A DNA stretch of 64,000 nt from Tepidanaerobacteraceae bacterium. Its GTDB lineage: Bacteria > Bacillota > Thermosediminibacteria > Thermosediminibacterales > Tepidanaerobacteraceae. The translations under genes were made by a program, and so were the position numbers. Positions within the stretch are counted from its first letter, which is position 1; every line of letters begins with the position of its first letter. The notes below the pieces were generated by a model, which saw nothing but the letters and a program-made list of their open reading frames with translations, had not been told where the DNA came from and made no database searches. The DNA lies in contig JANLFP010000004.1 of the NCBI GenBank assembly GCA_024655905.1, positions 145,643 through 209,642 on the forward strand, read 5' to 3'. Of the stretch, positions 50,662-54,330 are shown one piece after another.

Positions 50662-51183
50662 TTAACCACTCCTGGATAAAAAACCTATGACAAATCCTGC
50701 AAAGAGAAAAACAGCACACCATACCAAATTGCATATGTTAAAAGGATGTTCATCGTTTGCAATAGAATACTCTACCTTTCTTATTTTATTTTTTTCCATA
50801 TCAATCAGAAGAAGACCACCGGGTTTATAAACCAGATAATATTCTAGAAGCTGCCTTCGTGTATCTATTGATTTAAGCGACGGAGCAGATTCACCTGATT
50901 TTACTTCTGCAACAAACGTTTTATTGCCTTTTTTTACAATCATATCAGCTTTAACAGTAGCTTTATACGGTTTATCATCAACAAAAACCGTATAAGTATT
51001 TTCCTTTTGAATATCAATAATTTCAAAACCGTTTTTTTTCAATAACTCCACTGCTTTAATTTCGCTTTTTTTAGCCCTGTTAATTCTTTTGTTTGTTTTT
51101 AATTTTTTAATGTACCTTAAATACGATACCGTAATTATGGCACCGATAATTATCCCGGAAATAATATAATAGATATAGCTCAT
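50662..51183 (-). CDS. Membrane-anchored PD-(D/E)xK nuclease-like protein
   Basis: 173 residues. Membrane helix at each end (YIISGIIIGAIITVSYL; LVWCAVFLFAGFVIGFL) enclosing a domain with the nuclease-like pattern ATVKADMIVKKGNKTFVAEVKSG, where D and the E-x-K fit a PD-(D/E)xK core. GAGGG site before the ATG. Position between tlyA and nadK is found in related Clostridia; role unknown. Could be an inactive nuclease fold used as a scaffold. Confidence 0.72.
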   Translation of the reverse strand: MSYIYYIISGIIIGAIITVSYLRYIKKLKTNKRINRAKKSEIKAVELLKKNGFEIIDIQKENTYTVFVDDKPYKATVKADMIVKKGNKTFVAEVKSGESAPSLKSIDTRRQLLEYYLVYKPGGLLLIDMEKNKIRKVEYSIANDEHPFNICNLVWCAVFLFAGFVIGFLSRSG

Positions 51184-51218: not shown

Positions 51219-52040
51219 TCAGTTTTCCTTTCGATGGAATAATTGTAAATGAGCGTTTTCAACAACTTTTTCTATATTTATTATTCCATTCTGTCTTGGA
51301 ATTTTTTTAAACCATCCTAAAAACTCAATATTTCCACGCGGGCCGGTAATAGGTGAAAAATCTATACCCCATTCGAAAAAATTGTTTTGATTGGCGCTTT
51401 TTATGACTCTAGCAATTGCTTTTTTATGCAAGTCCCGCTTCCTTACCACACCGTTCTTGCCGACATCTTTTCTCTCGACTTCAAACTGAGGTTTTATTAA
51501 TACCACTAAATCCCCTTCAATTTTTAATAAATTATAAAATGTATTAAAAACTACAGAAAGAGATATGAAAGAAAGATCGGCAGTTATAATGTCCACTACC
51601 TGTCCTATATCCTCAAGCTTTAAATAACGTACATTGGTTTTTTCCATTACTACTACTCTTGGGTCGTTTCTTAACCGGTAATCAAGTTGACCATAACCCA
51701 CATCTACAGCAAAAACTCTTTTGGCGCCGTTTTTTAAAAGGCAGTCTGTAAAACCTCCAGTGGAAGCCCCGGCATCTATAATGACTTTATCTTTGGGCTT
51801 TACGTCAAAAACTGAAAGAGCTTTTTCCAGTTTCAATCCACCTCTACTGACAAAAGGCATTGCCTTGCCTTTTACTTCGATATCAACATCCATGCTTACC
51901 ATGGTTCCAGGTTTATCAATCATCCTGCCATTTATATAAATCTTGCCTGACATAATTTCTGCTTTTGCTCTTTCTCTGCTGGGAAAGCATCCTCTTTGAA
52001 CTAAAAGCATATCCAGTCTTTCTTTTGGGCTGCGCATCAT
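51219..52040 (-). CDS. tlyA: TlyA family rRNA 2'-O-methyltransferase
   Basis: About 273 residues. N-terminal S4 domain (RLDMLLVQRGCFPSRERAKAE shown for location in part) and FtsJ-like SAM domain with DAGASTGGFTDCLL and the K-D-K-E set (DVGYGQLDYRL, ITADLSFIS, VLIKPQFEV). The exact start (52052, 52046 or 52040) is uncertain; GGGG precedes all. Follows oapA by 15 nt. Confidence 0.94.
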   Translation of the reverse strand: MMRSPKERLDMLLVQRGCFPSRERAKAEIMSGKIYINGRMIDKPGTMVSMDVDIEVKGKAMPFVSRGGLKLEKALSVFDVKPKDKVIIDAGASTGGFTDCLLKNGAKRVFAVDVGYGQLDYRLRNDPRVVVMEKTNVRYLKLEDIGQVVDIITADLSFISLSVVFNTFYNLLKIEGDLVVLIKPQFEVERKDVGKNGVVRKRDLHKKAIARVIKSANQNNFFEWGIDFSPITGPRGNIEFLGWFKKIPRQNGIINIEKVVENAHLQLFHRKEN

Positions 52041-52055
52041 TACCATCCCCAAATA

Positions 52056-52688
52056 TTACTTGCTACTATAGTTGCCTGAAAAAAAATCAATTCCTAATTC
52101 TTTTTTCAATATATATAAAAAGAAAGCTACATTGTAAACTATTCTTTTTGAATTTTTTAAGGCAATTCCTTTCCCTATAGCTTTGCCACCTATAGTCAAA
52201 GTTGAGATGGCCGCTGCTACAAGAATACTTACAACCGTTTCATTTATGCTCTTTGCTGCAACAAGTGTTTTTATCACAATGGCAGCACCTGCTGTGCCGC
52301 TTATTATACCACAAATGTCTCCAACTACATCATTACAAAAATTTGATACAATATCTGCGTTGCGTATCAATTTTACTGCTTCTTTTCCACCGGGAACTTT
52401 ATCTGCAGCCATGGCATGAAAAGGAGTTTCACTGGCTGAAGTAACGGAAATGCCTATAATGTCAAATAAAATACCTATTATTATTATTAAGAGCAGTAGA
52501 AAAACAGAAAATATTGTATTTGCCTTATTCAAAATGGTTTCCGATATAAAACTAAAAAAAACGGACAACGCAAAAGCTAGGAAAAAAACCCGATATACCC
52601 ATTTTGCTTTTGTGTTTCCGCCAATTTCAATATTCTTTCCTTTTCTTTTTGTTTTCCCGGAACTATTCTTTTTTGAGCAAGGACTCAA
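52056..52688 (-). CDS. oapA: OLE-associated protein A (OapA)
   Basis: 210 residues, about four membrane segments (KAKWVYRVFFLAFALSVFF, FSVFLLLLIIIIGILFDII region, then weaker ones near 120-165). Family segment DIIGISVTSASETPFHAMAAD. OapA binds OLE RNA and brings it to the membrane in Bacillus halodurans, where the complex matters for cold, alcohol and Mg stress. Start is TTG at 52688 with a perfect AGGAGG 7 nt upstream. The OLE RNA lies directly upstream in the same transcript. Confidence 0.9.
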   Translation of the reverse strand: MSPCSKKNSSGKTKRKGKNIEIGGNTKAKWVYRVFFLAFALSVFFSFISETILNKANTIFSVFLLLLIIIIGILFDIIGISVTSASETPFHAMAADKVPGGKEAVKLIRNADIVSNFCNDVVGDICGIISGTAGAAIVIKTLVAAKSINETVVSILVAAAISTLTIGGKAIGKGIALKNSKRIVYNVAFFLYILKKELGIDFFSGNYSSK

Positions 52689-52711
52689 CTTTAAACCTCC
52701 TGCGCATTTAC

Positions 52712-53317
52712 CGAAACAGGTGGCAGTGAATTGAGTAAATTTTGCGGCTTAGGTCCAGCTGGATTTCCCAGGAAGGCATCTCGTCGTCGCCGACAAGACG
52801 GTTCCCCTTTAAGCCCGCCTTTGCCATGTCGCCATAAGCAATGCTAGATTACCACTTAGTCCACACTGTAATCCTCAATTCACTTCCATATGGAACAGTC
52901 TAGGGGTTTTCCCCACCAAAATCCATCTTCCCTTAGCCTCTTTTGCAAAAAGGGTTTCAAAGGGTATCCCCTAAGACTCAAATTGGCCAATTTAAGTCTT
53001 AGCCTAAATGCCTTTTTCCACCCTTTTCGCTTCAAGGCAGGCTACACTGCACCCAACATGTAATCGAATGCAGGTTCACACCCCAAGCCATAACTACTAA
53101 AAATTATCAGTTACAAACTTGGGTCTCCACGGAAGTAGGGTCAACGCCCACATGCCATTGCAGATCGCCCCATCTTCCTTACTCCCAGCACCAACCCCCG
53201 ACTGGGCGTCGGCAGCCAGCACCAGGAACTTCATCGATGTGCCCTTGACGGATTTTTAGCCCCGCCTTCAGGGAAGCGATTTTGACTAGAATACTGTACC
53301 ACCTGTTTTTCGATTCG
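52712..53317 (-). ncRNA. ole: OLE RNA (ornate, large, extremophilic)
   Basis: A 600-nt non-coding, GC-richer region in a 754-nt gap between ispA and oapA. The ends pair: minus-strand ACAGGTGG...CAGT near 53307-53293 with ACTG-CCACCTGT at 52727-52714, closing one large structure. Inside, an 8-bp stem with a GCGA tetraloop (52779-52798) and a long hairpin around 52972-53004 are visible. Place and partner protein match the known OLE locus (ispA, OLE, oapA, tlyA). No ORF of note in it. A promoter stands at its 5' end. Confidence 0.92.
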
Positions 53318-53323
53318 AAATTT

Positions 53324-53352
53324 ATTATATCATAAAAAAAAATCACCTTCAA
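53324..53352 (-). promoter_or_regulatory. Sigma-A promoter of the OLE-oapA transcript
   Basis: TTGAAG (53352-53347), 17-nt spacer, TATAAT (53329-53324); the predicted start is near 53317, just before the terminal stem of the OLE RNA. Confidence 0.75.
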
Positions 53353-53442: not shown

Positions 53443-54330
53443 CTAATATCGTCTTTCTTTCAAAAACTCAATCAGCTGGATAAAAAACCAATTGTTATCA
53501 AACGATGATATTAAATCTTTGGCTTCCTTACAAAGTTTTTCGACCATTTGAAGCGATTCATCATAACCGAATAAGGAAGGAAATGTGTTCTTATTATTCT
53601 TAGCATCACTACCAACTCGTTTTCCAATTAATTTTTCATCGCCATTTATATCCAGTATGTCATCAATTATCTGGAACAATAAACCAATTCTTTCCCCGTA
53701 ATCATCAATTGTTTTTAAATCTGACTCTGAAGCTTCAGCCAGCCTGGCGCCCGACCATAGTGACGCACTTATCAGGCAACCGGTTTTATGCCTGTCAATA
53801 TATAGCAGGGTTTGTTCATCTATATCTTTGCCAGAAGCATCAATATCAACAGCCTGACCTCCTACCATCCCAAGACTTCCTGCTGCTTTCGAAATTCTGT
53901 CAATAACATCGAGTACAGCTTGCAAAGATATGCCGCTTATTGCAGAGTTTCTTGCAATAATGGAAAAGGCATCGGTCAATAAAGCATCCCCTGCAAGAAG
54001 TGCCATAGCTTCTCCAAAAACCTTATGACACGTGGGTTTTCCTCGCCGTAAATCGTCATTATCCATAACCGGCAGATCGTCATGGATAAGGGAATATGTA
54101 TGTATCATTTCTATACCGCAGGCTGTGGGAATTACTTTTTCGAATGATAATCCAAAAAGTTTTGCACTCTCCATGACTAATATCGGTCTTATTCTTTTTC
54201 CCCCGGCCATAACACTGTAACGTAATGCCTGATGCAATCTTTTCGGAAAAGCTTCTCGGGGTAAATAAAAGTCAAGAGCTGCATCCACTATTTCTGCTTT
54301 CTGTTTAAGTAATTTTTGAAATTCATCCAA
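53443..54330 (-). CDS. ispA: Polyprenyl (farnesyl) diphosphate synthase
   Basis: 295 residues. First Asp-rich motif DDLPVMDNDDLRRG, second motif FQIIDDILD; GGKRIRPIL near residue 45 binds IPP. Start TTG at 54330 with a close GGGAG; overlaps xseB by 8 nt. A dxs gene, common next to ispA, is absent; OLE takes its place. Confidence 0.95.
   Translation of the reverse strand: MDEFQKLLKQKAEIVDAALDFYLPREAFPKRLHQALRYSVMAGGKRIRPILVMESAKLFGLSFEKVIPTACGIEMIHTYSLIHDDLPVMDNDDLRRGKPTCHKVFGEAMALLAGDALLTDAFSIIARNSAISGISLQAVLDVIDRISKAAGSLGMVGGQAVDIDASGKDIDEQTLLYIDRHKTGCLISASLWSGARLAEASESDLKTIDDYGERIGLLFQIIDDILDINGDEKLIGKRVGSDAKNNKNTFPSLFGYDESLQMVEKLCKEAKDLISSFDNNWFFIQLIEFLKERRY

Follow-up and report, generated by a model that had tools for sequence, protein, structure and literature searches.

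A regular OLE–oapA locus with a predicted promoter of its own and without dxs in a Tepidanaerobacteraceae bacterium

The OLE–oapA locus and its relatives

The locus analysed here is a regular OLE–oapA locus, built of known parts and representing known biology in a further lineage, the relatives of Tepidanaerobacter and Thermosediminibacter. It brings no new mechanism; what it adds is family-wide sequence evidence for transcription of OLE from its own extended −10 promoter, and a lineage with OLE and ispA but without dxs and dxr, a combination that narrows the ways in which OLE might be connected with the synthesis of isoprenoids. The window is the whole stretch of DNA analysed, 64,000 nucleotides of contig JANLFP010000004.1 (GCA_024655905.1). 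On its minus strand the order is nusB, xseA, xseB, ispA, OLE, oapA, tlyA, the gene of a 173-aa protein, nadK, argR, recN, spoIVB and spo0A. The families from xseA to recN were assigned by family searches, and the flanking genes we take to be nusB, spoIVB and spo0A from their sequence and the gene order. A preliminary description had placed the RNA between ispA and oapA/tlyA, and the family searches confirm this order, with ispA upstream and oapA and tlyA downstream. The coordinates of the features are presented in Table 1.

Table 1. Positions of the main features of the OLE–oapA locus in the window
Feature	Position	Strand	Evidence
ispA (farnesyl diphosphate synthase), upstream of OLE	53443–54330	−	Family searches
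−35 hexamer TTGAAG	53347–53352	−	Promoter scan; TTGAA + any base, 17-nt spacer in 10/10 group loci
Extended −10, TG-A-TATAAT (TATAAT 53329–53324, TG 53332–53331)	53324–53332	−	Promoter scan
OLE RNA (RF01071), full length	52704–53318	−	Rfam model, 532.9 bits; structure over 73 sequences
P1 5′ strand AACAGGUGGU, partner 52724–52715	53298–53307	−	RNAalifold covariation
P3/P3.1 5′ strand, rod	53270–53284	−	RNAalifold, helix lengths
P4 hairpin, A-rich loop	53247–53266	−	Rfam model, RNAalifold
P9 loop UUGGCCAA, palindromic	52983–52990	−	Sequence
P3/P3.1 3′ strand	52917–52933	−	RNAalifold, helix lengths
P1 3′ strand GCCACCUGUU	52715–52724	−	RNAalifold covariation
oapA Shine–Dalgarno AGGAGG, 7 nt before TTG, 13 nt after P1	52696–52701	−	Sequence
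oapA, 210 aa, OLE-associated membrane protein A	52056–52688	−	Family search, alignments, fold comparison
tlyA, next gene after oapA; dxs normally between oapA and tlyA	51219–52052	−	Family searches, locus comparison

For comparison we used a set of 80 OapA loci, in 78 of which OLE was found by nhmmer; 2,822 OLE matches in Bacillota have been published (PMC11332333). Based on the OapA and OLE sequences, the nearest relative of the window is a Thermoanaerobacterales MAG (L016), whose OLE is 93% identical, followed by the Thermosediminibacter and Tepidanaerobacter loci with OLE identities of 80–81%. One locus of the set (L070) has oapA but no OLE next to it, none being found in the 8.8 kb examined, of which 5 kb lie upstream. 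Concerning the 173-aa protein (50662–51183, minus strand), its position between tlyA and nadK is kept across the window's group, and it shows a sub-threshold match to a Cas4-like nuclease (TIGR00372, E 8.3e-5, cut-off not reached).

Structure of the OLE RNA

OLE is a bacterial RNA of about 600 nt that acts at the cell membrane; it ranks, to our knowledge, among the largest non-coding RNAs of bacteria that lack an assigned biochemical function. The structured RNA of the window had been read as OLE, and the covariance model bears this out: RF01071 matches at full length (model positions 1–616 of 616, E 4.3e-154, gathering score 50). A search with the same Rfam model finds a single OLE copy in the genome of 3,195,216 bases.

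The structure was derived with RNAalifold from 73 OLE sequences, L043 and five sequences cut at the 5′ end being omitted; helices were named by position, partly after PMC12265935. P1, P2, P3/P3.1, P9 and P10–P12 are recovered de novo with covariation support. The pairing ends of the preliminary description correspond to the end-to-end helix P1, which is paired in 84% of cells with 8/10 pairs covarying and which Rfam's OLE model leaves unpaired. The long internal hairpin is P9 with its palindromic loop, and the GNRA hairpin is found as two GCGA loops (52832–52829 and 52790–52787). The loops of P5.1 and P6.1, GCCCA and AUGGCA, a candidate kissing pair, have a complementary triplet in common, recognised by eye only.

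Three of these elements have been assigned roles in published work: the GGCC palindrome of the P9 loop is described as the site at which the OLE dimer makes its symmetric kissing-loop contact (PMC12286853), the A-rich loop of P4 as a dimer contact in cryo-EM and the rod of P3 and P3.1 as a proposed membrane-crossing element (both PMC12265935). The window OLE shares all three with the Clostridium acetobutylicum and C. botulinum dimers seen by cryo-EM (PMC12286853, PMC12265935); for the window OLE, the dimer and the membrane crossing are putative. The P3/P3.1 helix has 14 bp in the window and 11–16 bp across the 73 sequences (strands of 16–19 and 17–21 nt), its sequence being free and its length nearly fixed. 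The other core helices are as constant in length or more so, and large variation is seen only in P7–P9. Because most core helices are equally fixed, the length of P3 speaks neither for nor against membrane crossing, and it was rejected as a test for being non-discriminating.

The predicted promoter of OLE

A sigma-A promoter directly before the 5′ end of OLE had been described, and the scan recovers it as TTGAAG-17-TATAAT with an extended −10, ending 5 nt ahead of the OLE match. The transcription start is predicted at about 53317–53315, at the 5′ end of the match. Taken together, promoter-like sites show no enrichment in this region over shuffles (13 vs 9.7 ± 2.9); the OLE promoter is the only site with a 10/12 match, and its −35 alone matches at 4/6. 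The site alone is weak evidence, and the same position was therefore scored in related loci. This was done for 74 of the 79 OLE-bearing sequences (78 loci and the window; five cut at the 5′ end were left out), in the 45 nt that precede the conserved GUGG core and against 50 rounds of dinucleotide-preserving shuffles.

TGnTATAAT is found upstream of the OLE core in 46/74 loci (shuffles: mean 0.4, maximum 2) and exact TATAAT in 49/74, compared with 4.9 in shuffles. All ten loci of the window's group, the window included, combine TTGAA with a 17-nt spacer and TGnTATAAT. Compared with L016, the window has the same two hexamers and a diverged spacer. Consensus-like promoters are also present in loci with different upstream genes (L040, L049 and L062). 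The best-scoring −10 falls below 5/6 matches in 9/74 loci; two of these (L065 and L066) carry TGTTATAAT further upstream, as judged by eye, and the others are without a good promoter. Because of this position and its conservation across loci, a predicted extended −10 promoter of its own is a family trait of OLE, and the putative site in the window is convincing on the same two grounds, weak as it is by itself. An own promoter of OLE is not new: it is already reported for Halalkalibacterium halodurans, where ole lies inside a large operon yet has its own promoter (PMC9723947, citing a 2007 paper).

The 3′ side of OLE

The start of oapA in the window lies 21 nt past the end of the OLE alignment. 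A start of oapA was listed for 72 loci and 'no start' for L050, L056, L081, L086, L088 and L089; the statistics of the OLE–oapA gap are rough, several start picks (those giving negative gaps) being plainly wrong.

A hairpin, GCTGATAG-loop-CTATCAGC, with a T-rich run is located directly 3′ of OLE in 15 loci (L026, L027, L028, L030, L032, L033, L034, L036, L042, L053, L054, L063, L067, L069 and L077). The hosts, alkaliphilic clostridia and relatives of these, include Alkaliphilus, Natronincola, Tindallia, Anaerovirgula, Anoxynatronum and Thermohalobacteraceae. Both arms are exact in 14 loci, with one mismatch in L028. Two near-duplicate pairs are among the 15, and the arms are identical in 12/13 non-redundant loci, where the mean identity of OLE is 75%. 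Elsewhere among the 122 loci examined, the motif is found only in L103, which comes from the same genome as L069. The terminator script flagged 17/73 loci and missed L042, though its hairpin was seen by the motif search. The hairpin looks like an intrinsic terminator under sequence selection, or like an additional 3′ part of OLE not recognised before; a literature search for OLE RNA and terminators gave no description of it among the entries listed. The distribution suggests two putative 3′ architectures of OLE, an invariant, terminator-like hairpin in alkaliphilic clostridia and none in the window, and OLE 3′ ends are possibly formed in two different ways.

OapA, OapB and OapC

The gene adjoining OLE had been named oapA, and this identity holds: it encodes a helical membrane protein of ~21 kDa with the DxxxD motif and a CNNM-like fold. 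D120 and D124 of the motif are invariant in all 37 OapAs (of 81) that were placed in an alignment, and the motif is present in 81/81 tblastn alignments. The AlphaFold2 model (pLDDT 83.8) is helical and has the CNNM transmembrane fold: it can be superposed on the transmembrane part of archaeal CorB (MtCorB, 7m1t) with Z 13.3 and rmsd 2.4 over 131 residues, and four CorB/CorC entries score Z 11.8–13.3, the next unrelated chain reaching 7.3. Foldseek with the same model gave no match at E 0.001, CorB appearing only at E 0.017. Against the CNNM model (PF01595) OapA scores 24.0 bits, under the curated Pfam cut-off of 28.4, and a CNNM match at E≤0.01 is seen in 27/37 OapAs. OapA is like the CNNM/CorB/MpfA Mg2+ transporters in its modelled transmembrane fold and weak sequence match; it differs from them in its score under the Pfam cut-off, its DxxxD motif and the absence of CBS and CorC domains. 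This agrees with the published view of OapA as CNNM-like but distinct (PMC11332333). No CNNM/MpfA protein other than OapA was found in the genome, matching the published anticorrelation of OLE and MpfA.

Both OapB and OapC, for which the genome was searched, are encoded away from the OLE locus. The KOW model of Pfam retained only L24 and NusG; OapB was located instead by gene position and a PDB match, between map and infA (7k9b, OLE-associated protein B, E 7.3e-14). The OapB candidate L096:8156-8452 (minus strand) additionally matches the archaeal ribosomal protein eL14 (E 5.5e-7). The YbxF/OapC homologue is found between two genes which, from their sequence, we take to be rpoC and rpsL.

The system of H. 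halodurans shares with the window a full-length OLE, an adjoining oapA and an own promoter inside a large operon, as reported in PMC9723947, PMC12265935 and PMC11332333; OapB and OapC encoded elsewhere and the absence of another CNNM protein are also common to both. Unlike it, the window belongs to a clostridial lineage near Tepidanaerobacter and Thermosediminibacter, has no dxs after oapA and has the short gap to oapA given above, and its OLE has the identities to its own group and to L016 already stated.

The transcription unit and alternative readings

It is very probable, in our assessment, that the locus combines an autonomous OLE–oapA unit, a processed OLE 3′ end, a membrane complex with OapA, OapB and OapC, and a lineage-specific loss of dxs and dxr. 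The unit would lie inside the nusB–xseA–xseB–ispA…tlyA–nadK–argR–recN cluster. From the sigma-A promoter with its extended −10, transcription would begin at OLE's 5′ end and continue through OLE into oapA. No terminator was found between OLE and oapA in the window, and for this reason the mature 3′ end of OLE is presumably made by processing just outside P1. The RNA would fold into the known structure and dimerise, and OapA, as a CNNM-like helical membrane protein, would hold it at the membrane together with OapB and OapC, which would be supplied from ribosomal-protein operons. By analogy with the work on H. halodurans, the complex may help the cell to adapt to Mg2+, to cold, to alcohol and to poor carbon sources. 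The missing dxs would reflect a lineage-specific loss together with dxr, and no relocation.

Since the scan of the window sequence also found no terminator between ispA and OLE, read-through from ispA is possible, and OLE could come mainly from an xseAB–ispA transcript that is cut at both ends, the promoter-like site being decorative; the corresponding cluster of H. halodurans is reported to be transcribed as one polycistronic RNA (PMC12265935). We regard this as improbable, given an extended −10 at the same place in many more loci than expected by chance, consensus-like promoters behind other upstream genes as well, and the own promoter reported in H. halodurans (PMC9723947). Less credible still is a control of oapA translation in cis by OLE folding, in which an unformed P1 would free the 3′ strand CCACCU and mask the AGGAGG. 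For the window, the calculated pairing between the Shine–Dalgarno and the P1 3′ strand is 0.76 vs 0.41 for shuffled strands; however, across the 29/73 loci with a recognisable Shine–Dalgarno and start the mean is 0.34 vs 0.30 shuffled and only 13/29 exceed their own shuffles, and this candidate was rejected. A dxs gene that has moved elsewhere in the genome or is hidden by an assembly gap might also be suspected, the assembly consisting of 37 contigs and transketolase-type matches being abundant (14 in the genome). Such a gene is very unlikely: genome completeness is 99.98%, the highest score with the Dxs model is 221 bits vs a cut-off of 466, the matches to this model are split transketolases or E1 subunits, and dxr is gone too, all eight group genomes being without both.

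Absence of dxs and dxr

The common order is ispA–OLE–oapA–dxs–tlyA, dxs being directly after oapA in 63/80 loci. In 11/80 loci dxs is absent though tlyA is present, and 6/80 are ambiguous; every one of the eight loci from the window's group that extend to tlyA is among the 11. The preliminary description was right that dxs is missing between ispA and tlyA, but its placing of oapA in the dxs position does not hold: dxs normally follows oapA, and therefore oapA does not stand in place of dxs, which has dropped out behind it. In the genome as a whole, a profile search of the contigs gave no Dxs match above the cut-off, and Dxr is absent in the same kind of search. The dxr gene often sits between cdsA and rseP–ispG; here this interval is occupied by an AI-2E-type transporter. 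IspG is present (521 bits), as is a DRL_cat protein (PF21135, DXR-II). The mevalonate pathway was rejected as an explanation for the missing dxs, neither HMG-CoA synthase (PF08540) nor the reductase (PF00368) being found in the genome; PF08540 misses some archaeal control genomes, which PF00368 detects.

Among 12 genomes compared, 8/8 of the group possess DRL and are without dxs and dxr, and three genomes from outside the group contain dxs and dxr and no DRL. The L080 genome (G010), a MAG, has dxr and DRL, with no dxs above the cut-off and none after oapA. The isoprenoid entry steps appear to have been replaced in the lineage. DXR-II has already been published for Tepidanaerobacter sp. Re1 and Thermosediminibacter oceani (PMC3847144); the accessible part of that article makes no statement on the loss of dxs. 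Because a mutated E1 of E. coli PDH is reported to replace DXS (PMC3424233), an E1-type source of DXP is possible, and a DRL–E1 operon may by analogy be such a source, a catabolic role being equally possible. A tentative and rather doubtful reading is that the lineage has lost Dxs and Dxr, that DXR-II (DRL) feeds the MEP pathway and that a thiamine enzyme other than Dxs, possibly the E1 pair adjacent to DRL, makes DXP. If this is true, OLE–oapA has been kept beside ispA while the dxs neighbour was lost, and the frequently remarked gene link of OLE to isoprenoids would therefore be independent of local DXP synthesis.

Concerning the neighbourhood of DRL, it adjoins glucitol-type PTS genes in most of the 12 DRL stretches and E1-alpha in 5/12 (G000, G002, G004, G005 and G006), the identities of the neighbours being Pfam-checked in G000 only. 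In the Tepidanaerobacter/Thermosediminibacter group (G000 and its relatives L099 and L108–L119) DRL is often part of a glucitol-PTS type operon, and a pyruvate/acetoin-dehydrogenase E1 pair is located next to it in several group genomes.
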